A DNA stretch of 32,080 bases from Alicyclobacillus sp. (GTDB taxonomy: Bacteria; Bacillota; Bacilli; Alicyclobacillales; Alicyclobacillaceae). Under the pieces are notes generated by a model. That model did no database searches, was not told where the DNA came from, and saw nothing but the letters and a program-made list of their open reading frames with translations. Both the position numbers and the translations under genes were made by a program. The first letter of the stretch is position 1, and the number at the start of each line of letters is the position of its first letter. The stretch spans positions 1 through 32,080 of the forward strand of contig NZ_JAIMAV010000025.1 in NCBI RefSeq assembly GCF_023511815.1. The letters are read 5' to 3'. This document shows, in pieces, positions 6,035-29,911 of the stretch.

Positions 6035-6109
6035 GGGTGTGTGCCATCCGGCACGGTCGTACATACTTTTGAGGCATTCGCCGCGTCAGGGCGGCGGGGA
6101 GGCGGAGAT

Positions 6110-14408: not shown

Positions 14409-15560
14409 TCACAGTGAGGGTGTGGCCTCGAAATTGTGGATGACCGCGAGGGCGGCGCCCCAAGCCGAGGCGTGGGCGGTGCGGAGAAAGAGAAGCTGGG
14501 TATGGCTCGCCGGAATCTGCAGCGCCCTATCGCGCACCGCATCCCGAACGGCCTGCTGAAACGTGCCGACGTCGTTGTAGGGGGCGTCAATCACGATGTA
14601 CTCGGGATTGAGGAGATTGATCACAAGGGCGATGGCCGTGCCGAGGTGTGTTCCCACTCGTGCGAGCACATCGTGGAAGGGGTCGCTGGTTGGCGCATGC
14701 TGCCGGTCTGCGAAGAATGACCTGACGGTGTCGTCGTCTGCGGGATCGATTTTTCTCACTCCAAGCCGATCCAACACGGCGGGCACGCTCACCATCTGCT
14801 CCAAACATCCGCGCTGGCCACAGGTGCAGCGTGGCCCATCTGGCGCCACGACCACATGGCCGATCTCGCCGGCGGTCCGGCTGAACCCGTGCACAATCTC
14901 GTTGCCGAGCACAAAAGCCCCGCCGACCCCTTCATCGATCCGGATGTAGAAGGTGCTGTGAGCATCCTCCGGGATCACGTGCACGGGGGCGAGGGCTGCC
15001 GCCTTGACCCGATTGAGCACCTGCACCGATACCCCGAGGCGTTGCGCGAGTGGCTCTGCGACCGGCACGTCCCGCCACCCCAAGTGGGTGGAATAGCGGA
15101 CGAGGCCGGCGTCGGGATCGACCAAGCCGGGTATGGACACCCCGAGGCCAAGGATGTTGATGCCGGGGCCTGCGAGACGGTGGACCAGATCCTCGATGCA
15201 AGCCAGGCATGCCTGCGGGTCCCGTGAATGGACATTTACACGTGCGGACTTGAGCATCGCCCCATGGTAGTCGGTGAGCACAGCCTCGCAGGAGGTATCC
15301 CGAACCAGGATGCCGAGCACGCGGAAGGCGTCCGCGGCGAGACACAGCTGTGTCCGCGGCCGCCCGATGCCTTGGGGATCCGCCCCCACCTCCTGGACGA
15401 GCCCATCCTCCAAAAATTTCTCGACAATCAGGGAGACGGTGTTCTTACTCAGCCCGAGCCGTTCGGCCATCTCCTGACGCGAGCTCACCCGGTTGGCGCG
15501 CAGAAAGGAAAGGATGCGCTTTTCGTTGATCTCGCGTAGCAAGGTCGGACCTTTGGGCAA
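14409..15560 (-). CDS. ROK-family transcriptional repressor (NagC/XylR type)
   Basis: A 383-residue regulator. An N-terminal winged helix-turn-helix (about residues 10-60, RILSFLRANRVSSRQEMAERL then GLSKNTVSLIVEKFLEDGLV) precedes a ROK domain. The zinc site is intact: GEIGHVVVAPDGPRCTCGQRGCLEQ contains CxCGxxGCxE. The kinase catalytic Asp is replaced: the usual NDxxAAALAE reads NRVKAAALAP, so it should bind but not phosphorylate a sugar. The TTG start at 15560 is chosen because GAGGAGG lies eight bases upstream; a GTG 54 bases earlier has no site. It is divergent from the SSS symporter and most likely represses that operon. Confidence 0.9.
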   Translation of the reverse strand: MPKGPTLLREINEKRILSFLRANRVSSRQEMAERLGLSKNTVSLIVEKFLEDGLVQEVGADPQGIGRPRTQLCLAADAFRVLGILVRDTSCEAVLTDYHGAMLKSARVNVHSRDPQACLACIEDLVHRLAGPGINILGLGVSIPGLVDPDAGLVRYSTHLGWRDVPVAEPLAQRLGVSVQVLNRVKAAALAPVHVIPEDAHSTFYIRIDEGVGGAFVLGNEIVHGFSRTAGEIGHVVVAPDGPRCTCGQRGCLEQMVSVPAVLDRLGVRKIDPADDDTVRSFFADRQHAPTSDPFHDVLARVGTHLGTAIALVINLLNPEYIVIDAPYNDVGTFQQAVRDAVRDRALQIPASHTQLLFLRTAHASAWGAALAVIHNFEATPSL

Positions 15561-15695
15561 CTGGGGCACCTCCTCGTGAATTCCATAATAGTACAGGTTT
15601 GCGGAGTTTGTCACTTGACGCCATCGTACATCTGCACGGCACGGCTCTAAGCCAGGGCGAACAAAATTTTTACCCGGTCAAATTCTCTGTTGATA

Positions 15696-15823: not shown

Positions 15824-15852
15824 TTCTTCACGAGAAAAGGAGGGGCGTGAAT

Positions 15853-17364
15853 ATGTCCGGATTGGATTGGTTTATCCTCATCGCATACTTCTTCGTCATG
15901 ATCGGTATTGGGATTTGGTCTTACAGGCGTGTCGGAAGCGCTGACGAATACTTCACCACCGGCGGTAAGATGCCCTGGTGGCTGGCCGGGGTGTCTCACC
16001 ACATGTCGGGGTACAGCGCCGCGGTGTTCGTGGCGTATGCCGCGGTCGCCTACACCAATGGCTTCACCCTCTATGTCTGGTGGGCGGTGCCTGTCTCCAT
16101 TGCGGTCTTCGTCGGAGCCATCTGGATTGCACCTCGCTGGGCGCGGCTGCGGGAGCACTACCGCGTGGGTTCTCCGATGGAGTACCTGGCCACCCGCTAT
16201 AACGTGCCCACCCAGCAGCTGATGGCCTGGTGTGGCGTACTGCTCAAGATCTTTGACGTCGGGGCGAAGTGGGCGGCCATCGCCATCATCCTCCAGGTAT
16301 TCACGGGGCTGCCGCTGCCAGTCGGCATTCTCCTCTCCGGCGGTGTATCACTCATCTACTCAACCATCGGTGGACTGTGGGCGGACGCGCTGACGGATTT
16401 CGCACAGTTTATCATCCAGCTGGTCGCGGGGATCGCCATGTTCGTCATCGTGCTCGCCAAACTCGGGGGCATCGATGCCATCGGCGGCATCTGGGCAAAG
16501 CTGCCGCCCAACCACAGTCATCTGTTCGACGGACCGTACACATTCTGGTTTGTTGTGGCCTACCTCTTGATTGACTTTCTCAGTTACAACGGCGGTACGT
16601 GGAACTTGGCGCAGCGGTATCTCGCGTCGCCCAACGGGACGGAGGCGAGAAAGGCCGCCATTCTGTCCGGCTTTCTGTATCTTCTGTGGCCCCTCATTCT
16701 GTTCTTCCCGATGTGGGCGGCACCGATCTTCTTTCCGCACCTGGCCAAGCCGGATCAGTCCTACGCCCTCATGGCGCGCACCTTCCTGCCGCCGGGGCTC
16801 GTGGGCCTCGTCCTGGCCGGGATGTTCAGTCACACGATGGCCATGACCACGTCGGACGCCAACGCCATCTCGTCCGTCGTCACACGGGACATCCTACCGC
16901 GTCTTTCGGCACGGACGCGGAACCTCAGCCCTCGGGGCGCACTCGTCGCCGCCCGGACGACCACGCTGGTGTTCGTGTTGCTGACCATGCTGGTGGCCGT
17001 CGAACAGAACGCCTTCGGCGGTGTGTTGGGCCTCCTCATCACCTGGTTCGGCGCCCTCGTCGGGCCGATCTCCATCGCCATGCTGTTCGGCCTGCTGCCG
17101 GCCTTCCGCCACAGCGGCCCCGCGGCCGCCATCGTCTCACTGGTCGGCGGCGTCGTGACGTTCGCCCTCGATAAGTACGCCTTCCATGTCAGCACGGCCG
17201 CGACCGTCGGTCTGCCCGTGCTCGTGTCGTTGATCCTTTACACCGTCATCGGCTGGTTCTCCCGCGGCCGCGCGCTGAAGCCAGAGGTCGCCCGGATGAT
17301 GGAGGCCCTGAGTCAGGACGTACCGCCGCCGGCTGACGTGTACACCACGACCGGGCGTGGCTGA
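15853..17364 (+). CDS. Sodium:solute symporter (SSS family), probable amino-sugar uptake
   Basis: A 503-residue membrane transporter with about 13 hydrophobic segments starting WFILIAYFFVMIGIGIWSY. The SSS pattern is visible in ADEYFTTGGKMPWWLAG, then GYSAAVFVAYAAVAY, and in the TM5-6 region GGLWADALTDFAQFIIQLVAG. It would couple Na+ entry to uptake of an unphosphorylated sugar or N-acyl amino sugar; the substrate is inferred only from the downstream catabolic genes. The ATG at 15853 has AGGAGG nine bases upstream; a GTG at 15847 is too close. It is the first gene of an operon that continues 76 bases later with the epimerase and is under probable ROK and CcpA control. Confidence 0.9.
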   Translation: MSGLDWFILIAYFFVMIGIGIWSYRRVGSADEYFTTGGKMPWWLAGVSHHMSGYSAAVFVAYAAVAYTNGFTLYVWWAVPVSIAVFVGAIWIAPRWARLREHYRVGSPMEYLATRYNVPTQQLMAWCGVLLKIFDVGAKWAAIAIILQVFTGLPLPVGILLSGGVSLIYSTIGGLWADALTDFAQFIIQLVAGIAMFVIVLAKLGGIDAIGGIWAKLPPNHSHLFDGPYTFWFVVAYLLIDFLSYNGGTWNLAQRYLASPNGTEARKAAILSGFLYLLWPLILFFPMWAAPIFFPHLAKPDQSYALMARTFLPPGLVGLVLAGMFSHTMAMTTSDANAISSVVTRDILPRLSARTRNLSPRGALVAARTTTLVFVLLTMLVAVEQNAFGGVLGLLITWFGALVGPISIAMLFGLLPAFRHSGPAAAIVSLVGGVVTFALDKYAFHVSTAATVGLPVLVSLILYTVIGWFSRGRALKPEVARMMEALSQDVPPPADVYTTTGRG

Positions 17365-17440
17365 ACATCGCAGGCCACCCGTGAATCGACCATCTGTATG
17401 CCTTCGGTCACCTGGATCTCACGCGTAGGAGGAGATGTCC

Positions 17441-18706
17441 GTGTGCGCCACCCAGGACCTTCGGACTTTCTACGAGGAGCACCTCCGGACGGTACTGCTG
17501 CCGTTCTGGCAACGCGCCGTCGATCCCCGTCACGGCGGGGTCTACACCTGCTTTAACAACGACGGTACGGTCCTTATCAGCCGGGATAAATACACCTGGT
17601 CGCAGGGGCGATTCGCTTGGCTGTGGTCGACTATCGCACGTCTGGCCCAGGACGGTGTCCTGTCCATGCCGGCCGAACCGTTCCTGGCACAGGCCGGGCG
17701 GACCGTCGCTTTCCTTCGGCGGCACGCCATCCTGCCGAACGGCAACTGCGCCTACCTGCTCGCGGAGAACGGGGTGCCGAAGGAAGCCATACAGGGCGCC
17801 GGGCATGACATCAGCTTTTACGCCGATTGCTTCGTCATCCTCGGCTTTGCCGGATACGCGCGTGCAAGCGGCGATGAGGCTGCGGTGGAGGACGCGCTTC
17901 GATTGTACGATCACGTCGTCGAACGCGTCCAAGCCGGCGAGTTCCGCACCGAGCCCTACCCAATTCCGCCGGGGATGCGGGCGCACGCCGTTCCCATGAT
18001 TCTCCTGAATGTGACACAGGAGCTGTTGGACCTGCTCATGGCGATGGGCCACTCGAGGACAAGGGAGATGCGGGATCGCCTCGTCGAATACGCCGAGGAC
18101 ATCCTCGCCACCTTCATGCAACCGGACGGGCGGGTGAAGGAAATTCTTTCTGACCGGACGGAAGACGACAACACTGTGCTATGCCGCCATCTGAATCCTG
18201 GGCACACCATCGAAGACATGGGGTTCGTCCTGCGGGCGGCCGGGCAGACCGGGAGGTCGGATTGGATTGCCCCCGCTCTTCGGGCCATCCGCAAGGCCTT
18301 TGAACTCGGTTGGGACGACGACCACGGCGGACTCCTGCGCTTCGTCGACATGGACGGCGGCTCTCCTCGCGGACGACGATACGGTGATCGCTACGAGCAG
18401 CTCATTCTCGACACATGGGACATGAAGCTGTGGTGGCCTCACGCGGAAGCTCTGTACGCCACCCTGCTCGCGCACCAGATGACCGGGGCGGAGGACATGA
18501 GGCATCTGTATGACCAAGTACACGTCTATACTTTTCAGACATTCCCGAACCCAGAGCAGAAGGTCGGGGAGTGGGTGCAGATCCGGGATCGATCCGGCCG
18601 GCCCGTCGACACGGTTGTCGCTCTGCCGGTCAAGGATCCGTTTCACATCCTACGCAGCGTGCTGCTCATCCTGGAACGCTTGGTGGAGGAAGGGATACCG
18701 AGATGA
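17441..18706 (+). CDS. N-acylglucosamine 2-epimerase (AGE) family protein
   Basis: A 421-residue (alpha/alpha)6-barrel sugar epimerase. Family motifs with putative catalytic histidines are present: RHLNPGHTIEDMGF (H255), KLWWPHAEALYA (H334) and KDPFHILR (H402), together with the early RDKYTWSQGRFAWLWS. In this context interconversion of ManNAc and GlcNAc is the likeliest role, but the family also includes mannose isomerases and cellobiose 2-epimerases. The GTG at 17441 has AGGAGG at eight-base spacing; an ATG at 17435 is only two bases from it. Its stop overlaps the next start (ATGA), indicating translational coupling. No sialic acid lyase is nearby, so ManNAc would not come from sialic acid here. 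Confidence 0.85.
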   Translation: MCATQDLRTFYEEHLRTVLLPFWQRAVDPRHGGVYTCFNNDGTVLISRDKYTWSQGRFAWLWSTIARLAQDGVLSMPAEPFLAQAGRTVAFLRRHAILPNGNCAYLLAENGVPKEAIQGAGHDISFYADCFVILGFAGYARASGDEAAVEDALRLYDHVVERVQAGEFRTEPYPIPPGMRAHAVPMILLNVTQELLDLLMAMGHSRTREMRDRLVEYAEDILATFMQPDGRVKEILSDRTEDDNTVLCRHLNPGHTIEDMGFVLRAAGQTGRSDWIAPALRAIRKAFELGWDDDHGGLLRFVDMDGGSPRGRRYGDRYEQLILDTWDMKLWWPHAEALYATLLAHQMTGAEDMRHLYDQVHVYTFQTFPNPEQKVGEWVQIRDRSGRPVDTVVALPVKDPFHILRSVLLILERLVEEGIPR

Positions 18707-19983
18707 CGGGGCTGTGGCTCGGCGCGACGAAGGTGGACATCACCCCCCGGACGCCCGTGCCTCTGGCCGGGTTCGCGCACCGCACCGGCGTGTCCGAAGG
18801 GGTGGCGCATCCGCTGTACCTGCGCGCCTTCGTCCTCGCCCAGGGAGGCGTCCGCGTGGTGTGGATCACCGCCGATCTCATCTGGTGGGGCCCGGAGTTG
18901 GCCGGACGCCTGCGTCGCCGTATTTCGGATGGGTGGAGCATCCCGCAGGCACACGTCCTGTTGCATGCCACGCACAACCATTCCGGGCCGCAGACCACCG
19001 CCCGCTTCACCGCCCCCCTCGGCCGGCCGGATGAGGAGTACATTCGCCAGCTGGAGGCTGCCGCCGCGGAAGCGGTGGCGGCGGCGTCCGGTCATCTGGA
19101 GCCCGTGTCGCTGGCGGTCGGAACAGGGGTGTGGGGCGCGGGTGTGAATCGACGGCGCGTGATCGACGGAGTCAGCCGGATGGCGCCCAATCCCGAGGGT
19201 CCAAACGATCCACGGGTCACCGTTCTCTCGTTTGTCCGCCCGAACGGCCGCCCGAAGGCACTCTGGGTGCACGCCACGTGCCATCCCACCACCACCGATG
19301 ACAACCGGGTCTCCCCGGACTTCCCCGGGGTGGCCATGGATGCGCTGGAGGCACTCCTGGGCGGTGGGACGGTCGCCGGTTTTCTGCAGGGCTTCTGCGG
19401 TGACGTGCGGCCCAACCTGACACGGAATGGGGAATTCATCCGCGGAACGCAGGCGGACGTGGAACACGTCGCCGGCCAGCTGGTGGATGCGGTCGGGGAG
19501 GTCCTGCACACCCCGCTTCGGGATGCAGGGGCCCCGTTGCTCAAGGTAACCGAGTGGGACGTCCCGCTCCGGTATGCTCGGGTTCCGGGCGAGGACGAGC
19601 TGGGGCAGGCCGCGTCATGTCCCGGCATCCGCGGGGAGTGGGCCAAGCGGCTGATGGCCGAGCGGGAGAGAAGGTGCACATCCGTGCCGCTGCACCTGAC
19701 AACCGTTCGGTTGACGGGAGGGATCGGATTTGTCGCCGCGGACGCGGAGATGGTTTGCGATTACGGGCTGAACCTGCGCCGCATCAGCCAGGGCCGCCTG
19801 CTGCCCGTCGGGTACACGAACGGCATGATCGGTTACGTCCCGACGGCCGGACAGATCCGGGAGGGCGGCTACGAACCGTACGAGTCGTGCTTCTACTTCG
19901 CGTTGCCGTCACCGTTTGACGAGCGTATCGAGGCGGCTATCCTGGACGCCTTTCATCACATCGAAAAAGGGTGTTGGTCGTGA
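18703..19983 (+). CDS. Neutral/alkaline ceramidase-like protein with altered amidase motif
   Basis: A 426-residue cytoplasmic-looking protein (no signal peptide) related to the N-terminal domain of neutral ceramidases. It shows GATKVDITPRTPVPLAGF, then the zinc motif HATHNHSGP (H91, H93), and WVHATCHPTTT (H190, H194) as the later metal histidine region. The amidase hexapeptide of ceramidases, GDVSPN, reads GDVRPN (R236 at the serine position), so the known nucleophile is missing. The C-terminal immunoglobulin-like domain of true ceramidases is absent. It is translationally coupled on both sides, to the epimerase and to the NagB-NagA fusion. A role on an N-acyl amino sugar or glycoside is inferred; ceramide hydrolysis is unlikely. 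Confidence 0.82.
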   Translation: MTGLWLGATKVDITPRTPVPLAGFAHRTGVSEGVAHPLYLRAFVLAQGGVRVVWITADLIWWGPELAGRLRRRISDGWSIPQAHVLLHATHNHSGPQTTARFTAPLGRPDEEYIRQLEAAAAEAVAAASGHLEPVSLAVGTGVWGAGVNRRRVIDGVSRMAPNPEGPNDPRVTVLSFVRPNGRPKALWVHATCHPTTTDDNRVSPDFPGVAMDALEALLGGGTVAGFLQGFCGDVRPNLTRNGEFIRGTQADVEHVAGQLVDAVGEVLHTPLRDAGAPLLKVTEWDVPLRYARVPGEDELGQAASCPGIRGEWAKRLMAERERRCTSVPLHLTTVRLTGGIGFVAADAEMVCDYGLNLRRISQGRLLPVGYTNGMIGYVPTAGQIREGGYEPYESCFYFALPSPFDERIEAAILDAFHHIEKGCWS

Positions 19984-22184
19984 GAGAATTCGTGCATCCT
20001 TGTGTCGACTTCCAAGTGGACGCGCTCGAGGTGCGGGTGTACGAGGATCGCGACGCGATGGGCCAGGCCGCCGCGGCCCACGTCGCGGACCTGATGAACC
20101 GCCTTCTGACTGAGCGCGGCCATATCCGAATGGTCTTCGCGGCCGCCCCCTCCCAGAACGAGCTGTTGGCTCACCTGGCCCAGCATCCAATCGACTGGTC
20201 TCGCGTAACGGCCTTTCACATGGACGAGTACATCGGGCTCGCCTCGGACGATCCGCGCCGCTTCGTCCACTACCTGCGCACGCACCTGTTCGACCTCGTG
20301 CGCCCGGGCACCGTCCATACCCTCGATCCCGCCGACGACCCGGTACAGGAATGCGATCGCTACACCCGGCTGCTCCAGGAGGCGCCCATCGACATCATCT
20401 GCCTCGGCATCGGTGAAAACGGGCATATCGCCTTCAACGATCCGGGCGTCGCCGACTTTGAGGACCCGGCATGGGTAAAGGTGGTACCGCTCGATCCGAG
20501 ATCCCGCCAGCAACAGGTCCACGATGGGTGCTTCCCCACGCTCGACGAGGTGCCGACGGCCGCGGTGACGCTCACGGTGCCCGTCTTCCGGTCGGCCTGC
20601 CACCTGGTGGCGGTTGTGCCCGGCCCGACGAAGCGGGAGGCGGTGCGGCGAACGCTGCAGGGTCCCGTCACGCCCGAATGCCCGGCCTCCATCCTGCGCA
20701 CCCACCCGGACGCGGTGCTGTTCCTGGACCGGGATGCGTACGGGGGAGGAGATGGGGGCGCGAGTGAGCCGGAGACGAGGTTTGATCGTGAATACCCTGT
20801 GAGGCCGGATGAAGTTGTGGGGGGGCAGGCGGGCACACATGGCGTCAAGGACACTCGGTTCGTGACGTCCACTGGTGCGGAAGACGCTGTCCTTCTGGCC
20901 CCTGAGCCCCGGGTGCACGTTTCCGATTGTGAGGCGCTTCTGCGGGTGGAGGGTCGCCATTATCGCACCGGTATGCCCGTGGCGGTGGAGCTTAGGGCGG
21001 GGCGGATCGTCCGGGTGACCACGGCACCGGAGCGGCCTGGGTTGCCGTGGATTGGGCCGGGCCTCGTTGATCTCCAGGTTAACGGCTTTCGCGGGATCGA
21101 CTTCAACACCCGCCCCCTCACGACGGCGGCCATTCAGCGTGTGGTGCATGCCCTATGGGCGGAGGGGGTGACGACCTTTTTGCCGACCCTTATCACGAAC
21201 GGCGACGAGGCCATCGCGGAGCTCGCCGCAAGCGTGGCGCATGCGATTCGGGATGAAGCTGACGGAGGCGTGGGGCAGGGGTTGTGGGATCCGGCCATTG
21301 TGAGCGAACACGACGAGCGGGAACGATCCGGTAGGATCCCCACCATCCCCGGCATCCACCTGGAGGGGCCGTTCATCTCGCCGGAGGATGGCCCCCGGGG
21401 CGCCCACGATCGGCGCTACGTGCAGCCGCCCGACTGGGACCGGTTCCGGCGTTGGCAGGAGGCCGCGGACGGACGGATTCGCCTGGTCACCCTATCACCG
21501 GAGTGGCCGGAGGCGGCGGCCTTCATCGCCCGCTGCGCGGCCTCGGGCGTCCGGGTGGCCATCGGGCATACGGCGGCGGGTTCGGATCAAATCACGGCCG
21601 CCGTCCGGGCCGGGGCCACGCTGTCCACGCACCTTGGCAACGGGGCTCACCCCGTGCTTCCGAGGCACCCCAATTACATCTGGGATCAGTTGGCCTGTGA
21701 CGATCTGTGGGCGTCCGTCATCGCCGATGGCTTCCATCTTCCGGACGCCGTGCTGAAGGTGTTCCTGCGGGCCAAGGGGGAGCGGGTGTTTCTCGTCAGC
21801 GACGTGGTGGACCTGGGTGGCCTCGCGCCCGGACGATACACCACCCACATCGGCGGAGATGTGGTCCTCACGCCCGAGGGGAAGCTGCACCTGGTCCATC
21901 AGCCGGAACTCCTGGCGGGTTCGGTACAGAGTCTGCGTCAGGGCGTTGGCAATTTGGTGGCGAAGGGGCTGTGTTCGCTGGCGGACGCCTGGGGGATGGC
22001 GTCCGTGCGCCCGGCGGACTACCTGGGGCTACCTGTGGCTCGTGATATCGCGCCCGGCGAGCCGGCGGATCTGGTGCTGTTCACCTTTGACGGGCAGGTG
22101 CGTGTGAAGCGGACTTTGAAGGCCGGCGTGATCGTCTACGACTCGTACGAAGAAATGGATCCAGGTGGCCGGTCAGGTGTCTGA
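19980..22184 (+). CDS. NagB-NagA fusion: glucosamine-6-phosphate deaminase plus N-acetylglucosamine-6-phosphate deacetylase
   Basis: One uninterrupted 734-residue frame joins two enzymes of one pathway. Residues 1-260 are NagB-like: FHMDEYIGL gives D82, and LGIGENGHIAFNDPG gives H149, with N147 and D154 where E. coli has Asp141 and Glu148. A polar linker runs from about 261 to 305. Residues about 306-725 are NagA-like: GPGLVDLQVNG (the E. coli-type motif lacking HxH), E462 in GIHLEGPFISPE, H530 in IGHTAAG, H551 in STHLGNG and catalytic D608 in LVSDVVDLGG. The GTG start overlaps the preceding stop by four bases. The fusion would deacetylate GlcNAc-6-P and then deaminate GlcN-6-P to fructose-6-P. 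A pre-existing start before the NagA half has no in-frame ribosome binding site. Confidence 0.92.
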   Translation: MREFVHPCVDFQVDALEVRVYEDRDAMGQAAAAHVADLMNRLLTERGHIRMVFAAAPSQNELLAHLAQHPIDWSRVTAFHMDEYIGLASDDPRRFVHYLRTHLFDLVRPGTVHTLDPADDPVQECDRYTRLLQEAPIDIICLGIGENGHIAFNDPGVADFEDPAWVKVVPLDPRSRQQQVHDGCFPTLDEVPTAAVTLTVPVFRSACHLVAVVPGPTKREAVRRTLQGPVTPECPASILRTHPDAVLFLDRDAYGGGDGGASEPETRFDREYPVRPDEVVGGQAGTHGVKDTRFVTSTGAEDAVLLAPEPRVHVSDCEALLRVEGRHYRTGMPVAVELRAGRIVRVTTAPERPGLPWIGPGLVDLQVNGFRGIDFNTRPLTTAAIQRVVHALWAEGVTTFLPTLITNGDEAIAELAASVAHAIRDEADGGVGQGLWDPAIVSEHDERERSGRIPTIPGIHLEGPFISPEDGPRGAHDRRYVQPPDWDRFRRWQEAADGRIRLVTLSPEWPEAAAFIARCAASGVRVAIGHTAAGSDQITAAVRAGATLSTHLGNGAHPVLPRHPNYIWDQLACDDLWASVIADGFHLPDAVLKVFLRAKGERVFLVSDVVDLGGLAPGRYTTHIGGDVVLTPEGKLHLVHQPELLAGSVQSLRQGVGNLVAKGLCSLADAWGMASVRPADYLGLPVARDIAPGEPADLVLFTFDGQVRVKRTLKAGVIVYDSYEEMDPGGRSGV

Positions 22185-22232: not shown

Positions 22233-22991
22233 ATGACCGAATCGGTCATGACCCAGTATCTCGGCAAGATTCTCCGCCACCTGCAGGCGCTGCACGATGA
22301 GGAGCAGGGCGCCGTTCGCAGGGCGGCGAGGCTGGTGGCGGATCAGGTGAAGGCGGACCGGATTGTGTACGTGTACGGGCCGGGCGGGCACTCGAATCTG
22401 GGCAGCCAGGAGGTTTTCTTCCGCGCGGGCGGGCTCATGCACATCAGCGCCATCCTGGACGAGGGGACGCTGCTCTCCAACGGGGCGCTGAGATCGATGG
22501 CCATCGAGCGGACCCCCGGGTACGGCGCCATCGTGATCGCCGACAACGATCTGAAGGCGGGCGACCTGTTGATTCTGGTCAACGCGTACGGCATCAACAC
22601 GGCGTGCATCGACGCGGCGCTGGAGGCCAGACGGCGGGGCGTGACGACCATCGGCGTGACCTCGGTGCGGCATGCGCAGCGCACACCGCACAATCATCCG
22701 GCTCGTCATCCGAGCAAGAAGAATCTCTACGAGGTGGTCGACGTGGTCCTCGACAGCAAGGTGGACGTCGGCGACGCGGTGGTGGAGATTCCAGGGCTCG
22801 AGCAGGCGGTGGCCGCGATGTCGACATTCGCCAACGCTTACCTGCTGAATTCGCTGATGGCGGAGGCGGTCGCCCTCCTGGTGGCAGAGGGGGTGCAACC
22901 GCCCATCTGGATGAGCGCCAATGCCCCTGGGGGCGACGACGCGAACGCCCGCTTCATCGAGCGGTTCCGTGGGCGGATCCGGAACTTATAA
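22233..22991 (+). CDS. SIS-domain phosphosugar-binding protein (UPF0309-like)
   Basis: A 252-residue protein with a single SIS fold, as in GmhA-type phosphosugar isomerases. After a helical N-terminus (YLGKILRHLQALHDEEQGAV) come the strand-loop YVYGPGGHSNLGSQEVFFRAGG and LLILVNAYGINTACIDAALEARRRG, then TTIGVTSVRHAQR. The overall pattern matches the UPF0309 group, for which I know no firmly assigned reaction. An isomerase or sugar-phosphate-binding role in the amino-sugar pathway is inferred. The ATG at 22233 has AAAGGAGGGAG upstream. It is the last gene of the first operon, 48 bases after the fusion gene, and convergent with the DeoR regulator. Confidence 0.83.
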   Translation: MTESVMTQYLGKILRHLQALHDEEQGAVRRAARLVADQVKADRIVYVYGPGGHSNLGSQEVFFRAGGLMHISAILDEGTLLSNGALRSMAIERTPGYGAIVIADNDLKAGDLLILVNAYGINTACIDAALEARRRGVTTIGVTSVRHAQRTPHNHPARHPSKKNLYEVVDVVLDSKVDVGDAVVEIPGLEQAVAAMSTFANAYLLNSLMAEAVALLVAEGVQPPIWMSANAPGGDDANARFIERFRGRIRNL

Positions 22992-23187: not shown

Positions 23188-23970
23188 TCACCTCTGCGCA
23201 GCGGCCTCTCGGGCGCGTACGACTCGGCAGCCGGCCTCGCGCAGGCGTGTGAGGGCCTCTTCCGGCATCCCGTCGTCTGTGATCCAGAGTGCGGGTTCGT
23301 CGATGCGGGCGACGGGCGCCAGGGTGACACGCCCGAACTTGCTCCTATCGGCGACAATGATTCCGCGTGTGGCGGATTGGAGCATGATCTTGTCGGTACG
23401 GCTCTCCATCAGGTTCGGCGTCGTGAATCCCGCCTGTACATCCGCACCATCCACACCGACGAAAGCGAAATCCGCATTCATCTGCGTCAGTGCCTCGTCC
23501 GCCAAATGCCCCACCGCCGCGTATGATCCCGGTCTCACAATCCCCCCGATCATGACCAGCGTAATGTGCGAGTGTCCCGCCAGTTCCGAGGCGATGTTGA
23601 TTGCCGGTGTGATGACCGTCAGGTGCCGTTTCTTCAATAACTCCCGGGCCAGGTAAGTGGTGGTCGATCCCGCGCTCAGCATGACCACCTGGCCATCCTC
23701 CACCATCGCCGCCGCCGCTGCAGCGATCTGGCGTTTTTCCGCGGTGTTTCGCCCCATCTTCTCCTGAAAACGCGTCTCCAGCGCAGACGCTGGATTTGCC
23801 GTCGCGCCTCCGCGGACGCGGCGAATGAGGTTCTGAGACTCCAGGATGTCGAGATCCCTCCGCAGCGTGACCTCACTGACCCCGAAGAAATCGCGGAGCT
23901 GATCGATCCGTACCTCTCCGCATTCCGCCACCCAATCGGCGATTCGCTGTCGGCGCTCGTCTGCCGACAT
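23188..23970 (-). CDS. DeoR-family transcriptional repressor
   Basis: A 260-residue regulator. The N-terminal helix-turn-helix starts SADERRQRIADWVAECGEVR and contains GVSEVTLRRDLDILESQNLI, followed by the RVRGGA hinge typical of DeoR. The sensor domain has EKRQIAAAAAAMVEDGQ, then SAGSTTTYLARELL, and VGVDGADVQAGFT near the phosphosugar pocket. The effector is probably a phosphorylated sugar intermediate of the neighbouring pathway. The ATG at 23970 fits the usual family N-terminus; a TTG at 24021 with GGTGAG upstream would add 17 residues and is a real alternative. It is divergent from the APC permease and most likely controls that operon. Confidence 0.9.
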   Translation of the reverse strand: MSADERRQRIADWVAECGEVRIDQLRDFFGVSEVTLRRDLDILESQNLIRRVRGGATANPASALETRFQEKMGRNTAEKRQIAAAAAAMVEDGQVVMLSAGSTTTYLARELLKKRHLTVITPAINIASELAGHSHITLVMIGGIVRPGSYAAVGHLADEALTQMNADFAFVGVDGADVQAGFTTPNLMESRTDKIMLQSATRGIIVADRSKFGRVTLAPVARIDEPALWITDDGMPEEALTRLREAGCRVVRAREAAAQR

Positions 23971-24267
23971 TCCGTCCCCGGAACGCCCCGCTTCGTTTTT
24001 TACCGTTTCCCGCTGCTCCAATGGATCTCACCCGCATTCCAACCGATCATCTGAGCCTGCGTTGTGCCAATGGGTGATTGTGTCACCTCGGGTAGGACGT
24101 TGCCATCCTCCCGGTTTGTCACCGTCGGGTATCGTACGGACACAGGCCCTCTGGTACCCACTAGCATAGCACACGACGGGAGCCTGATGGACCACAAAAT
24201 GAAAGGTTGGTGTTTCGAACTGGTTTCTATCATTGAATGAATATCGATAAAATGCCTAACGAATAGG

Positions 24268-24296
24268 TTGCGAAATATCTTTGAATCGATTACATT
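24268..24296 (+). promoter_or_regulatory. Promoter of the APC permease operon
   Basis: TTGCGA (24268-24273), a 17-base spacer and TACATT (24291-24296). The -10 hexamer is identical to that of the symporter promoter. Confidence 0.55.
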
Positions 24297-24300
24297 ATCC

Positions 24301-24317
24301 TTGTAAAACGGTTTCAT
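24301..24317 (+). promoter_or_regulatory. cre-like element
   Basis: TTGTAAAACGGTTTCAT has the central CG and a perfect right half of a cre site, but the left half is displaced by one base (TG-5-CG instead of TG-4-CG). It lies at the predicted transcription start. Its core AAAACGGTTTC is identical to the symporter cre, which argues for shared CcpA control. Confidence 0.5.
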
Positions 24318-24404
24318 GTTAGCCGGAATGCATACCGGGAATCCTGTCATTATCACTCCGGTTGTCATTCCCGCCACTTCGGGTTGTGAGAGGAGGAACC
24401 ACCA

Positions 24405-25787
24405 ATGGGACCATCCAACGGGAAACCTGGCGGATTGGTTCGAGCCATCGGGTTGTTTGAGGCAACCACCATCAATATGTCTCAGATGGTGGGGATTGGT
24501 CCATTCATCACCATTCCGCTCATTCTGTCCGCCATGGGTGGCCCGCAGGCATTGTTTGGTTGGATCGCCGGTGCCTTGCTCGCGATGGCCGACGGTTTGG
24601 TTTGGGCTGAGCTTGGTGCAGCGATGCCGGGTGAGGGCGGATCGTACGTGTATCTGCGGGAGGCGTTCCAGTACAGTACAGGGAAACTGATGCCGTTTTT
24701 GTTTGTGTGGTCGACTCTCATCGCCACGCCGCTCATCATGTCGACCGGCATGATCGGAATGGCCAACTACCTCATCTACTTCTGGCCGGGGATGACGCCG
24801 CTGGAGACCAAGTTGGTTGCGGCCGGTATCACCGTCATCACCGTCGCGCTCCTGTACAGGCGGGTGACGGGTGTGACGAAAGTGACCAAGGTACTTTGGG
24901 CTGGTATGATCCTCACCGTGCTGCTCATTATCGTGGCGGGCCTGACCCACTTCCATGCCGACCGGGCGTTCGCGTTCCCCGCAGGGGCGTTTGCGCCCAA
25001 CAAATTCCTCGCGGGCCTGGGCGCCGGCATGCTGATATCCATTTACGATTACCTCGGGTACTACACCGTCGCGTACATGGGGGACGAGGTCAAGGACCCG
25101 GGCCGCACCATCCCGCGTGCGATTGTGCTGTCCATCGTCCTGGTCGCCATCATCGACATGGCTATCAACCTGAGCATCATCGGGGTCGTGCCGTGGCAGA
25201 CGGCGGTCAACAGCCAGAACATCGGTACGCTGTTCATGCAGACCGTGTGGGGCAAGACGGGCGCTGCGCTGATCACCCTGCTGATCCTGTGGACGGCGTT
25301 CGCCTCAGTTTACACGGGTCTGCTGGGTGCTTCGCGACTTCCGTATAATGCGGCGCGCGACGGACTGTTTTTCAGCAGCTTCGGGAAGCTTCATCCCAAG
25401 CACCAGTTTCCGCACATCTCTCTGCTGGTGATGGGTGCGTTCACGGCGGTGTTCTGCTTCTTCAACCTGCAGCAGATCATCAACGCGCTGATGGCGGTCT
25501 CCATTGTCGTGCAGTTCATCGGCCAGATTGTCGCGCTGACCGTCCTGCGCCGCCGCCAGCCGGGTCTGAAGCGGCCGTTCAAGCAGTGGCTGTATCCGTT
25601 GCCCAGTCTCATCGCCCTGATCGGGTGGGTGTGGATCTTCTGGTCCTCCGGTTGGCAGGCTATCGAGTGGGCCATCGTTTGGACCGCTCTCGGGATTGTG
25701 GTATTCCTCGTCTGGGCTGCGCGCGGTCGTCAGTGGCCTTTCGGGGAGAAGGTCATCCACGAACAGTATCTATCCGCGCAACGGTGA
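24405..25787 (+). CDS. APC-superfamily amino acid/amine permease
   Basis: A 460-residue transporter with about 12 membrane segments. The APC signature is clear in TM1 and TM2 (IGLFEATTINMSQMVGIGPF, then AMGGPQALFGWIAGALLAM), in LVWAELGAAMPGEGGSYVYL, and in the loop GDEVKDPGRTIPRAI. The family imports amino acids or related amines by proton or cation symport. In an amino-sugar operon this is unusual. The closest known parallel is FrlA of the E. coli fructoselysine operon, so a glycated amine or amino-sugar conjugate is possible. The ATG has AGGAGG eight bases upstream. It is probably regulated by the adjacent DeoR protein and CcpA. Confidence 0.9.
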   Translation: MGPSNGKPGGLVRAIGLFEATTINMSQMVGIGPFITIPLILSAMGGPQALFGWIAGALLAMADGLVWAELGAAMPGEGGSYVYLREAFQYSTGKLMPFLFVWSTLIATPLIMSTGMIGMANYLIYFWPGMTPLETKLVAAGITVITVALLYRRVTGVTKVTKVLWAGMILTVLLIIVAGLTHFHADRAFAFPAGAFAPNKFLAGLGAGMLISIYDYLGYYTVAYMGDEVKDPGRTIPRAIVLSIVLVAIIDMAINLSIIGVVPWQTAVNSQNIGTLFMQTVWGKTGAALITLLILWTAFASVYTGLLGASRLPYNAARDGLFFSSFGKLHPKHQFPHISLLVMGAFTAVFCFFNLQQIINALMAVSIVVQFIGQIVALTVLRRRQPGLKRPFKQWLYPLPSLIALIGWVWIFWSSGWQAIEWAIVWTALGIVVFLVWAARGRQWPFGEKVIHEQYLSAQR

Positions 25788-25874
25788 GGCGCGGCCGTGG
25801 GACAGCGTGCGACGCGTTATGTGGTCCCACGGCGCCTTCGCCATCTACACTCCCGTGAAAAGGGGGATGGGCGT

Positions 25875-26825
25875 ATGGCACCAGCGTACCTGTTGGCGTT
25901 CGATTTTGGCGGAACAAAACTGGCGATCGCGACGGCCACGCCGGATGGCCGCCTCCTGTCCAGGGCACAGGTGGCGACCGGGGAGTGCCGTGACGCCGCC
26001 GACGCCCTGAGACGGGCCATCGCCGCCGGAAAACAGCTCGCCAGTGGCGCGGAGGCAGAGGGGAAGCGGTTGGCGGGCATCGGGGTTGCCACAATGGGAA
26101 TCACCCGCCGGGACGGAGTGGATATGGCGCCCAACGTGCCTGGGTGGCATGCGCTGCACCTGTGGGACGTCTTCGACGAGGCGTTCCCAGGAACCCCCGT
26201 CGCCATCGCGAACGATGTGAAGGCGGCTGCTCTCGCGGAGGTGTGCAGCGGGGCGTTGCGAGGTGCGAGGAGTGGGATGTATGTCAACCTCGGTACCGGC
26301 ATCGCCGTGGCACTCACGATGGGCGAACAGGTCCTCGAAGGCAGTCATGGCGCGGCCGGCGAGATTGGCTACAACCTGCGCCGACCGGATGAACCACGCG
26401 GGGTCCGGGATGGTGTCGCCCCACTCGAGGAATACACCGGCGGAAAGGCGCTGGGCGAGCGGGCCACGCGTCGATTTGGCCGATCCTTGACCGCGGCGGA
26501 CATATTCGCCCTCGTCGCCGAAGACGCCGAGATGCGGGGGTTCGTGGAGGATGCAATGACAGAGTTGGCCTTTCACCTGGCCAACGCGATGGTGCTCTGG
26601 GACCCGGAGGTCGTGGCATTCGGTGGAGGCATGATGGGCGCCGAGGGGGTCATCCTGCCCGTTATCGAACGATATGTCCGGCGGTTCGTCCCGTTCCCGC
26701 CCCGCCTCAGTTTGGCGTTTTACCGCCGGGATGCCGGCTTGCATGGCGCACTGGAGCTGGCCCGACGAGCCATGGCGCAAGAGAACACGAAACCGGGAGG
26801 CGATTCAATTGTCATACACCCGTGA
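25875..26825 (+). CDS. ROK-family sugar kinase
   Basis: A 316-residue cytoplasmic kinase expected to phosphorylate the imported sugar at C6. The phosphate-1 loop is FDFGGTKLAIA (D10 to K15), and the catalytic base is D114 in ANDVKAAALAE. The phosphate-2 segment NLGTGIAVAL is present. The zinc motif of NagK/glucokinase-type ROK proteins is absent: GEIGH reads GEIGY, and no CxCGxxGCxE follows, as in a minority of ROK kinases. GalNAc or GlcNAc kinase (AgaK-like) fits the pathway. The ATG at 25875 has AGGGGG eight bases upstream. Its end overlaps the start of the next gene by 17 bases. Confidence 0.9.
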   Translation: MAPAYLLAFDFGGTKLAIATATPDGRLLSRAQVATGECRDAADALRRAIAAGKQLASGAEAEGKRLAGIGVATMGITRRDGVDMAPNVPGWHALHLWDVFDEAFPGTPVAIANDVKAAALAEVCSGALRGARSGMYVNLGTGIAVALTMGEQVLEGSHGAAGEIGYNLRRPDEPRGVRDGVAPLEEYTGGKALGERATRRFGRSLTAADIFALVAEDAEMRGFVEDAMTELAFHLANAMVLWDPEVVAFGGGMMGAEGVILPVIERYVRRFVPFPPRLSLAFYRRDAGLHGALELARRAMAQENTKPGGDSIVIHP

Positions 26826-27852
26826 TGAGATTGACCACCAGCCTGAGGCGTGGCGCCTTACCTTGGCAGCGACCGACGCATGGTGGGACGAACACGCCGA
26901 GTACCTCGCGCAGGCCATCGACGGTACGGTGGTCTTCACAGGATGCGGGACGTCGTACCACTTGGCGCACAGCGCGGCGCGTCTGTGGCAGCTCGTCACC
27001 GGGCACCGTGCTATCGCGGTACCGTCGTCCGAGGTGTTCCTCTCCGGCACCGGCGCGCTGCCGAAGGACGGGCCGCTGACGATGTTCGCCATCTCTCGAT
27101 CCGGTACGACCACCGAGGTCCTGTGGGCGGTCGAACAGATTCAGCGGGATCGGCCTGGGAGTCGCGTGGTGGCCGTCACCTGCCACGAGGACAGCGATCT
27201 GGCCCGTCTGTGCGAACGCCCACTCGTTCTTCCACACGCCGCCGAACGGTCGGTTGTGATGACGAAGTCGTTCACCAGTATGCTGCTGGCGTTGCAACGG
27301 CTGGCCGCGCACGCGGCTGATCGAGTGGATCTCGTTGCTGAACTCGACCGCCTGCCGGACGAGCTCGCCCATCGCATGGCTGAGTTCACCGCATTTGGGC
27401 AGTGGGCGGGGGCCCAGGATAGCTGGCGCCAGTACATCTTCCTCGGCCTTGGCCCATATGAAGGGCTGGCGAGGGAAGCGACCCTGAAGCTCAAGGAAAT
27501 GACCCAGGTCGCATGCGAGGCGTACAACCCGCTGGAGTTTCGCCATGGTCCCATCTCTGTAGTGGCGCAGGGCACCGTGGTGGTGTCCATGGTCGATGCC
27601 GCCAACGCCGCCGCTGTGCAGGCCGTGGGACGGGACGTTGCGAGGTTGGGGGGAAGCGTGCTCGAGCTCGTCCCGGAAGGAGTCACCCGCGCACAGGAGG
27701 CGACGCGCGCGTTGGTTCTACCGTCGGTGAGCGACTGGAGCCGGGCCGTGCTGTACATGCCGGCGCTCCATCACCTGGCATTGGCACGGGCTGAGTTTCT
27801 AGGCTTGAATCCGGATCAGCCCAGACATCTGACGCAGGTGGTGACACTGTGA
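26809..27852 (+). CDS. SIS-domain amino-sugar-6-phosphate deaminase/isomerase (AgaS-like)
   Basis: A 347-residue double-SIS protein resembling the isomerase half of GlmS without the glutaminase domain. The first SIS domain has FTGCGTSYHLAHSAARLWQ and ISRSGTTTEVLWAVEQI; the second has FLGLGPYEGLAREATLKLKEM and NPLEFRHGPISVV, where the FRHGP motif recalls AgaS. AgaS converts galactosamine-6-P to tagatose-6-P plus ammonia; FrlB-type deglycases are the main alternative. The TTG at 26809 is taken as start because GGGAGG ends eight bases upstream and no ATG or GTG fits. It is coupled to the kinase by a 17-base overlap. The fused NagB domain is a second deaminase in the same island. Confidence 0.87.
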   Translation: MSYTRDEIDHQPEAWRLTLAATDAWWDEHAEYLAQAIDGTVVFTGCGTSYHLAHSAARLWQLVTGHRAIAVPSSEVFLSGTGALPKDGPLTMFAISRSGTTTEVLWAVEQIQRDRPGSRVVAVTCHEDSDLARLCERPLVLPHAAERSVVMTKSFTSMLLALQRLAAHAADRVDLVAELDRLPDELAHRMAEFTAFGQWAGAQDSWRQYIFLGLGPYEGLAREATLKLKEMTQVACEAYNPLEFRHGPISVVAQGTVVVSMVDAANAAAVQAVGRDVARLGGSVLELVPEGVTRAQEATRALVLPSVSDWSRAVLYMPALHHLALARAEFLGLNPDQPRHLTQVVTL

Positions 27853-27957
27853 CGGGGGTGACCCCGCTGTTCGGTGCGTGACAGGGGTGGTTGCTGGTTG
27901 AACACATCGCACGACTTCAACACGGGGAAGTCGAGCTGACCGAGGGAGGCCTCGAAC

Positions 27958-28815
27958 ATGCCACTGGTCCGGATGATGGACGTGTACGCGCGGGCTCAGC
28001 GACAGAGTTGGGCGGTGGTCGGATTTGCCGCATACAATTTGGAAACTGTCCAGGCATTGGTGCAGACCGCGGACCGTCTCGGTGCACCGGTGCTGGTGCA
28101 GACGACGCCGAGCAATATCGACAACGCGGGCATTCACCTGTTGGCGGCACTCGTCCGTGCAGCAGCGGATCGGGTTTCCGTACCGGTTGGGTTGCATCTG
28201 GATCACGGGGACAGCATCGATCGCGTTCGCCAATGCTTGGAATACGGGTACACATCGGTGATGATAGACGGTTCACACCTTCCATACGCGGAAAACGTGG
28301 CGTTGACCCGCGAGGCGGTGAGGTTGGCGCATGCCCGGGGTGTACCGGTGGAGGCGGAGTTAGGCCATGTCGGCGGTGTGGAAGATGACATGGCTGAAGC
28401 AGAGGCGGCATACACGGACCCGGATCTAGCGGCCGATTTCGTAGAGAAGACGGGCGTCGACGCTCTTGCAGTGGCAATCGGTACGGCGCACGGGCTGTAT
28501 CGGGGGGAACCGAAACTCGACTTCGACCGATTGAGGGCCATCCGCAAACGGGTGTCGGTCCCACTGGTACTCCACGGGGCGTCCGGCGTCCCTGACGCGG
28601 CCATCCGGCGCGCCATCGCGGAGGGAATTGTGAAAATCAACATTGCCACAGAGTTGAAGATCCCGTTTGCGGCGGCGCTGCGCACGTACCTCGTGGAAAA
28701 TCCGGAGGACTCGGATCCGCGCCGCTACTTCAAGCCCGCGCAGTCGGCGTACGCGGCGGTGGTGGCCAAGAAAATCCGACTGGCCGGCGCGGAGGGCCAA
28801 TATGCCGGCGCGTGA
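27958..28815 (+). CDS. Class II tagatose/fructose-bisphosphate aldolase (KbaY/GatY-like)
   Basis: A 285-residue zinc aldolase that splits tagatose-1,6-bisphosphate (or the fructose isomer) to dihydroxyacetone phosphate and glyceraldehyde-3-phosphate. Motifs are HLDHGDS (catalytic D82, zinc ligand H83), EAELGHVGG, the zinc ligand H178 in AIGTAHGLY, and H206 in VLHGASGVP. KINIATELK forms the phosphate pocket. Length and motif spacing match the KbaY/GatY/FbaA group. The tagatose preference is inferred from the AgaS-like and PfkB neighbours. The ATG has GGGAGG eight bases upstream. A gap of 105 bases separates it from the SIS gene with no clear promoter, so it is probably in the same operon. Confidence 0.93.
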   Translation: MPLVRMMDVYARAQRQSWAVVGFAAYNLETVQALVQTADRLGAPVLVQTTPSNIDNAGIHLLAALVRAAADRVSVPVGLHLDHGDSIDRVRQCLEYGYTSVMIDGSHLPYAENVALTREAVRLAHARGVPVEAELGHVGGVEDDMAEAEAAYTDPDLAADFVEKTGVDALAVAIGTAHGLYRGEPKLDFDRLRAIRKRVSVPLVLHGASGVPDAAIRRAIAEGIVKINIATELKIPFAAALRTYLVENPEDSDPRRYFKPAQSAYAAVVAKKIRLAGAEGQYAGA

Positions 28816-28906
28816 AGGTTCCGGCAGAGGACCCGCTGGCGTGGCTGGCGCAAGCACGGGCGTTGACATGGGAGTTCGGTTGGTCTGCGAACGTGAAGGT
28901 GACAGC

Positions 28907-29911
28907 ATGCTTCGTCGGGGGACCGCGGCCCTGCGGGTGTTGACGGTGACACCGAATCCCGCGATCGACAAGACGTATTGGTTGGAGCGAGTACGCCCGG
29001 GGGAGACGCTGCGGGTCAAGCGCGTGACGGCGAGAGCGGGAGGCAAGGGACTGAATGTCCTTCGAGTTCTCACAGCCCTGGGCGTTCCCGCGGAGGCCAC
29101 GGGCATGATCGGTGGGCACGCGGGCGCTTGGATCCGCACGGCGCTTGAAGTGGAGGGGCTGGCGAACGATTTTCTCCAGATTGAAGGGGAGTCGCGTGCG
29201 ACCGTTACGCTGGTGGAGACGGACGGCCGAGTGACGGAGCTGTTGGAACCGGGGCCGCTGGTGAGGGCTCGGGAGGCGGACGCATTCCTCCGGCACTTGG
29301 AACGCTTAGCGGAACGCGTCACGTTTGTCACGATGAGCGGTTCCCTGCCGCCAGGACTCGATCCGAGCCACTACGCCGATATGGTCCGAATGGTTCAGGC
29401 GTCCGGTGCTCGCGCATGTGTCGATACGAGCGGTGCGGCTTTGTCGGCTGCGGTTCCTGCCCGGCCTTTCCTGGTAAAGATCAACCATCATGAGCTGCGC
29501 CAGTGGTTGCAGACACAGCGGGAACCGATGTCGGACCCGGCGGTTGAGCCGGTTTCAAGGTGGGTGATCGATGGAGCCAGGTCGTTGGTGGAGGCGGGAG
29601 CAGAGGTGGCTGTGGTCACCTGTGGAGACCAGGGAAGTTTTTTGTCCACGCGGACGGACGTTTGGTACGCCCGGCCGCTGGTGCTGGTGCCGAAGCACGA
29701 GGACGGAATCAATCCGGTCGGCAGCGGGGACGCCTTTTTCGCGGGTCTGCTTGCAGGTTGGCACCGGTTTGGTGACTGGCTCGGGGCGCTTCGCGTGGCG
29801 ACCGCGGCGGGTGCGAGCAATGCCGAGCATCCGGTGGCGGGAACGGTGGATCCGAGTGACGTATGGCGGCGCAGCGCGGAGGTCGTCGTGAATCATGTCG
29901 TTCACCTGTGA
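28907..29911 (+). CDS. PfkB-family tagatose-6-phosphate / 1-phosphofructokinase-like kinase
   Basis: A 334-residue kinase that would phosphorylate tagatose-6-P (or fructose-1-P) to the bisphosphate used by the adjacent aldolase. Residues about 11-22 LRVLTVTPNPAID and then ARAGGKGLNVLRVL form the substrate-binding start typical of LacC/FruK. VTMSGSLPPGL follows mid-protein. NPVGSGDAFFAGLLAGW contains the catalytic base D275 and the anion hole. The ATG at 28907 has GAAGGTGA upstream; ATG codons at 28868 and 28802 lie in frame but would add a non-conserved extension. It closes the second operon. Subfamily choice between LacC- and FruK-type cannot be made from motifs alone. Confidence 0.9.
   Translation: MLRRGTAALRVLTVTPNPAIDKTYWLERVRPGETLRVKRVTARAGGKGLNVLRVLTALGVPAEATGMIGGHAGAWIRTALEVEGLANDFLQIEGESRATVTLVETDGRVTELLEPGPLVRAREADAFLRHLERLAERVTFVTMSGSLPPGLDPSHYADMVRMVQASGARACVDTSGAALSAAVPARPFLVKINHHELRQWLQTQREPMSDPAVEPVSRWVIDGARSLVEAGAEVAVVTCGDQGSFLSTRTDVWYARPLVLVPKHEDGINPVGSGDAFFAGLLAGWHRFGDWLGALRVATAAGASNAEHPVAGTVDPSDVWRRSAEVVVNHVVHL

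Follow-up and report, generated by a model that had tools for sequence, protein, structure and literature searches.

The 32,080-nt stretch of Alicyclobacillus sp. DNA analysed here (the window) contains what its sequence indicates to be a real gene fusion, limited to one lineage and probably bifunctional, in an under-studied amino-sugar operon. A NagB-like half (B) and a NagA-like half (A) occupy one frame, the fusion is conserved in a congener, both folds and the catalytic residues are retained, and among the samples searched the fusion occurs in this genus only. We consider it likely that the product is a single bifunctional N-acetylhexosamine(-6-phosphate) deacetylase/deaminase of the operon, derived from merged operon neighbours. 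The features discussed below are listed in Table 1.

Table 1. Position of the fused gene, its parts and the surrounding operon genes in the window.
Feature	Position	Strand	Basis
ROK-family repressor with N-terminal HTH	14409..15614	-	
SSS-family sodium/solute symporter	15847..17364	+	
N-acylglucosamine 2-epimerase (AGE) family protein	17435..18706	+	
Ceramidase-like (PF04734 family) hydrolase; stop overlaps fusion start	18703..19983	+	ortholog L024 matches PF04734; conserved neighbour
Fused gene (NagB-like half, linker, NagA-like half), 734 aa	19980..22184	+	frame, Pfam, congener G001
NagB-fold half, residues 7-256	19998..20747	+	PF01182, AlphaFold2, Foldseek
Residues 55-58 (AAPS), replacing the T-G-x-T/S phosphate loop of canonical NagB	20142..20153	+	alignment
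N147-x-H149...D154, equivalents of E. coli D141/H143/E148	20418..20441	+	alignment
Linker, residues 257-317, predicted disordered	20748..20930	+	pLDDT <50; divergence from G001
NagA-fold half, residues 321-722	20940..22145	+	PF01979, alignment, Foldseek
SIS-domain protein, NagS homolog	22233..22991	+	

The fused frame runs without interruption over 735 codons including the stop, and begins with a GTG. Stop/start overlaps such as GTGA are typical of translationally coupled operon genes, and here the start GTG shares bases with the TGA that ends the preceding ceramidase-like gene (GTGA at 19980-19983). Because of this overlap, the GTG at 19980 was favoured over another GTG at 19971. Pfam assigned residues 23-241 to Glucosamine_iso (PF01182; E = 7e-24, 85.4 bits against a gathering score of 27) and residues 359-719 to Amidohydro_1 (PF01979; E = 1e-9, 38.1 bits against a gathering score of 25). 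AlphaFold2 predicted two folded domains for the entire chain (mean pLDDT 80.5, pTM 0.62), and in Foldseek this full-length model matched NagA structures (best E = 6e-29) as well as NagB structures (best E = 3e-19). Three relatives whose separate B and A genes share a frame were included as rows in the alignment for the full-length model, read through their stop. Since the B half of this model therefore rests on few sequences, it was also modelled alone, which gave a pLDDT of 93.7 and the monomeric NagB structures 2ri0 and 2bkv as best Foldseek matches (E to 3e-22). The relative placement of the two domains in the full-length model is unreliable (pTM 0.62). Together, the open frame, the Pfam matches, the structure predictions and the congener (G001) confirm the single frame with NagB-like and NagA-like halves that a preliminary description of this DNA had proposed. 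The linker, however, is longer than the 45 or so residues given there, with 61 residues at pLDDT <50.

In E. coli NagB, D72 and H143 are catalytic, K208 is a phosphate ligand, and T41-G-x-T44 and R172 belong to the phosphate site. According to the alignment, the B half keeps the equivalents of D72, H143 and K208 (D82, H149 and K218), and it shares these residues and the fold with known NagB proteins (the monomeric type of B. subtilis, 2bkv; S. mutans, 2ri0/2ri1). It differs from them in its identity of ~30%, its AAPS loop, the Gln in place of R172, the Asp in place of E148, and its connection to a second enzyme. The preliminary description had singled out Asn147 and Asp154, at the positions of E. 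coli D141 and E148, as changes that might affect kinetics or substrate. Both residues are borne out by the alignment, but neither is distinctive: Asn147 is ordinary, since Asn also occupies this position in B. subtilis NagB, in E. coli AgaI and in the canonical NagB of the same genome, and Asp154, shared by all 44 aligned B proteins, is the norm of the subfamily. The larger changes in the B half, overlooked in that description, appear from the alignment to lie in the phosphate site, where T41-GG-T44 and R172 of E. coli are replaced by AAPS and Q179. Across the 44 aligned B proteins A56, P57, S58 and Q179 are invariant, and the one A/S position of the loop varies.

The metal, catalytic and phosphate residues of NagA (E131, H143, H195, H216, R227, H251 and D273 in E. 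coli) correspond to E462, H476, H530, H551, R562, H586 and D608 of the A half. N219 of E. coli NagA is likewise conserved, such that all catalytic and phosphate-contact residues checked are kept. The A half shares the fold and all eight checked residues with NagA (2vhl, 2p50), but it is distinguished from NagA by a score below the family cut-off, by membership of a subfamily marked by THLGNGAHPxLPRHPNYIWDQLA, and by the enzyme attached to its N-terminus.

The two halves had been taken for the cell's NagB and NagA, an assignment that does not hold. The B half scored 109 bits (112 in a six-frame search) against TIGR00502 (nagB equivalog), below the cut-off of 236.9, and the A half 185.6 bits against TIGR00221 (nagA equivalog), below the cut-off of 225.65; an unfused member of the A subfamily (213.8 bits) likewise remained under the latter. 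In contrast, a separate NagB on contig C96 (252 bits) and a separate NagA on contig C80 (308 bits) of the same genome exceeded these cut-offs. On the profile scores, the fused halves are assigned to a paralogous subfamily beside the separate canonical NagA and NagB. The long glucosamine-6-phosphate deaminase-like proteins of NF002557/PRK02122 (653 positions) are likewise long chains with a NagB-type domain at the N-terminus. The fusion matched only positions 23-271 of this 653-position profile and not the whole, so that the C-terminal part of these proteins differs from the NagA half.

The gene order ROK-SSS-AGE-ceramidase-like-B-A-SIS was identical in two genomes of the same family (G004, G399) and in Pullulanibacillus (L015), with B and A unfused in all three. 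Part of this order was found in Vibrio sinensis, Ktedonobacter and Paenibacillus filicis, and plasmids of Nitratireductor and Martelella carried B, SIS and A, some of them with the ceramidase-like gene. The Cohnella versions of the operon additionally encode ManNAc-6-P epimerase together with a ROK kinase, ROK kinases were also present in the operons of Laceyella and Thermoactinomyces, and a related operon of P. xylanilyticus included a protein with GH20/GH3 hexosaminidase domains. The epimerase and kinase and the GH20/GH3 protein of these related operons point to scavenging of N-acetylhexosamine and to catabolism of N-acetylhexosamine-6-phosphate. A kinase is absent from the conserved members of the window operon; a ROK kinase gene lies ~3 kb downstream of it.

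We propose that two adjacent genes, the NagB-like one followed by the NagA-like one, were joined in frame in the common ancestor of two or more species of the genus, and that a flexible linker of ~60 residues was acquired in the process. Acetate would most likely be removed from an N-acetylhexosamine-6-phosphate by the C-terminal half, through the metal-dependent mechanism of NagA; the N-terminal half would then most likely deaminate the aminohexose phosphate so formed and isomerise it to a ketose phosphate. In this proposal, we infer both activities, the 6-phosphate substrate and a single unprocessed polypeptide. The fusion would serve a dedicated amino-sugar scavenging operon with a ROK regulator, an SSS importer, an AGE epimerase, a ceramidase-like hydrolase and a SIS protein, and would run alongside, rather than replace, the cell's separate canonical NagA and NagB. 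Its chief effect is probably fixed 1:1 production and co-localisation of the two enzymes.

A standard NagB-NagA pair (GlcNAc-6-P deacetylase and GlcN-6-P deaminase) that keeps GlcN-6-P from wall synthesis by channelling, the idea put forward in the preliminary description, is possible, but we would give it less than even chances. Although the A-half active site is fully conserved, the B half has the NagB fold and the Cohnella operons carry ManNAc-6-P epimerase and ROK kinase, both halves fall below the equivalog cut-offs in a cell with separate canonical NagA and NagB, and the phosphate-site changes in B are fixed across the subfamily. Moreover, channelling finds no support in the predicted structure, in which the linker appears disordered, without sign of a tunnel, and the placement of the domains is not confident.

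The SIS neighbour provides a further view of the substrate. It is a homolog (E = 1e-36) of NagS (SCO4393, PDB 9eol), the GlcNAc-6-P dehydratase of Streptomyces, in which H53, R64, E94, D179 and N228 are essential or important for catalysis, and S54, S119 and S121 bind the phosphate (PMC12680351). The SIS neighbour keeps all five catalytic residues and S54, but has Asn for S119 and Tyr for S121. The same Asn and Tyr occur in 36 of 36 aligned SIS rows (~26 distinct homologs); H53, S54, R64, E94 and D179 are kept in these rows, as is N228 except in one gapped row. Because the B half is without the canonical phosphate loop and R172, and the SIS protein has lost two phosphate-binding serines, the substrate may be something other than a common 6-phosphate.

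In its full form, an unusual substrate would mean an amino sugar without 6-phosphate (the free sugar or one with another substituent). The SSS symporter would import it, the AGE protein would epimerise it and the fusion would deacetylate and deaminate it, while the SIS protein would work on members of this unphosphorylated series as well. We regard this as unlikely. It would fit the replacement of TGGT by AAPS and of R172 by Gln in the B half, the altered serine positions of an otherwise catalytically intact SIS protein, and the lack of a kinase in the core operon. A distant NagS homolog from Paenibacillus selenitireducens did not dehydrate GlcNAc-6-P (PMC12680351), which would also fit, but this homolog may lie outside the subfamily of the SIS neighbour and may not come from such an operon. 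However, the A half keeps the R227-equivalent phosphate ligand and the B half keeps that of K208 (K218), and the S119A and S121A mutants of NagS remain active (PMC12680351). Furthermore, the ROK kinases of some related operons and the ManNAc-6-P epimerase of Cohnella weaken the strict argument that no kinase implies an unphosphorylated substrate.

The conserved loss of phosphate-contact residues in B and SIS, with the catalytic ones retained, also gives rise to a broader reading, which we consider doubtful. Here the SSS-AGE-ceramidase-like-B-A-SIS genes would form a widespread uncharacterised amino-sugar pathway for a substrate other than standard 6-phospho-N-acetylhexosamine, with its deacetylase and deaminase steps welded together in this genus. 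The fusion itself points to a broadly distributed amino-sugar operon; annotation pipelines call its members NagA/NagB or 6-phosphogluconolactonase, although these lie beyond the curated families, and the phosphate sites of two operon members are altered.

The preferred reading, one bifunctional polypeptide, draws on comparison with the congener G001 (a near-complete assembly of 2 contigs), which has the same single-frame fusion at 86% identity with zero stops. The dN/dS ratios between the two species (~0.18 for the B half and ~0.15 for the A half; Nei-Gojobori) indicate that both halves are under purifying selection in this comparison. The linker is far more diverged, with elevated dN and dS and several indels, and its length differs by a net 36 nt (12 codons), yet the frame is kept despite the poor conservation. 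A third member of the genus (G002) has canonical separate enzymes only. Internal initiation, or proteolysis in the long, predicted disordered linker, might in principle yield two proteins from this frame, but this seems improbable. A weak SD-like element in the linker, AAGGA-N10-GTG at 20847-20864 (in-frame GTG at 20862), could start a NagA-like product, but it occurs in the window species only and is absent at the aligned position of G001; the alignment of the two species revealed no conserved Shine-Dalgarno sequence with in-frame start anywhere in the linker. An assembly or sequencing artefact, conceivable for a window on a draft contig, has a negligible probability and is ruled out by the same unbroken fusion in the near-complete congener assembly.

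No other B-A fusion was found in 61 relatives, 399 genomes of the class, 398 genomes of the phylum and the best 80 named genome contigs. Similarly, none of the nagA-family proteins in 249 Bacillota genomes was in frame with NagB (the one frame >600 aa was inspected). Outside Bacillota, sampling for fusions consisted of the named genome contigs and the Nitratireductor/Martelella plasmid loci. The sampled genome scans, in which only the window species and the congener are fused, indicate that the fusion is rare outside the genus, and in these samples it appears confined to it; almost all bacteria have the two enzymes as separate proteins. No description of a NagB-NagA fusion was found in the open-access literature covered (subscription journals fell outside this coverage). 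Several candidates were rejected: the frames of 660 aa in L119 and 627 aa in L092 contain an amidohydrolase domain only, and the long open frames of some Clostridia B genes consist of B and a different NagA with one in-frame stop between them.

ORF structure was read in the best 80 named genome contigs and in loci from the class scan. The same two genes were unfused at ~85 other loci in Bacillota, Bacteroidota, Pseudomonadota, Planctomycetota and Chloroflexota, usually with B directly upstream of A. Among 84 unfused loci with both genes, B preceded A in 78 and was immediately adjacent to it in 74; the median gap between the aligned cores was 27.5 nt, and B and A were in the same frame in 6 of the 74 adjacent pairs. 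The order of the enzymes in the fused chain, described earlier as reversed, is thus the ordinary operon order of unfused relatives and carries no special meaning; in E. coli, nagB is likewise upstream of nagA.

In trees of either half, both fusions formed one clade within Bacilli that carry separate genes. The simplest history is that the adjacent genes merged in the ancestor of the genus, and the fusion appears to be a recent and local event between operon neighbours rather than a new kind of system. The unfused B/A pairs of Paenibacillus, Laceyella, Thermoactinomyces, Cohnella and others belong to the same subfamily, with the same order and operon neighbours as the fusion, but in these pairs the two ORFs are distinct and frequently overlap or lie within a few codons of each other. 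Close relatives have both enzymes as separate products of the same operon, so the consequences of fusion for kinetics and for leakage of the intermediate are directly measurable, which makes the fusion a natural experiment in joining consecutive catabolic enzymes. Members of the same B subfamily are also joined to an operon neighbour in the TIM-barrel-NagB-like fusions of Paenibacillus (L018, L052, L078), where the partner is an N-terminal AP_endonuc_2 (xylose-isomerase-like) protein instead of NagA. One genome with a related operon showed a merger of A with SIS.

Downstream of the SIS gene, at 23188-29911, lies a second set of genes for an AgaR-like repressor, an APC permease, a ROK kinase, an AgaS/GlmD-like SIS enzyme, a KbaY-like aldolase and a PfkB kinase. 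This set was not found in the stretch of G001 that was read and is therefore probably a separate unit. It resembles a galactosamine/tagatose route; galactosamine use in E. coli needs AgaS, not AgaI or NagB (PMC3668189).

The NagB-like subfamily of the window fusion was also found joined to another operon gene in three Paenibacillus loci (L018, L052 and L078). The partner in these loci was the upstream xylose-isomerase-like TIM barrel, in contrast to the NagA-like partner in the window fusion. Because the three fusions fall apart from each other in the tree of NagB-like subfamily proteins, they perhaps represent separate merger events.

In Clostridia and Atribacterota (loci L061, L070, L075, L081, L121, L129 and L130), the window-type NagB-like subfamily was paired with a different NagA-like branch, which is 25-29% identical to the NagA-like half of the window fusion. 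The two genes often share a frame at these loci, with one stop codon between them. At L102, NagA-like and NagS-like SIS proteins were encoded within a single frame. The NagA part of this frame appears changed at its C-terminal end, and the joining may therefore be a frameshift rather than a genuine fusion.

In the NagS-like SIS subfamily (window 22233-22991 and its homologs at about 25 loci), NAYGIN corresponds to SLSGRN in NagS (SCO4393). Two of the three phosphate-binding serines of NagS are gone, and the catalytic residues are present as in NagS.

Features of the window and of related loci
Feature	Location	Strand	Remark
TIM barrel + NagB-like protein, one chain	L018:12170-13819		Paenibacillus
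TIM barrel + NagB-like protein, one chain	L052:11039-12748		Paenibacillus
TIM barrel + NagB-like protein, one chain	L078:5788-7530		Paenibacillus
NagA-like + NagS-like SIS protein, single frame	L102:667-2598	-	
Second sugar cluster	window 23188-29911		immediately after fusion operon
Ribonucleotide reductase large-subunit gene	window 6041-10474	+	1477 aa

The second sugar cluster encodes an AgaR-like protein, an APC permease, a ROK kinase, an AgaS/GlmD-like protein, a KbaY-like aldolase and PfkB. An amino-acid-type APC permease is uncommon for such gene sets. Elsewhere in the window, the ribonucleotide reductase gene is split in frame by an insert that resembles an intein and matches both Hint/intein-splicing and LAGLIDADG.
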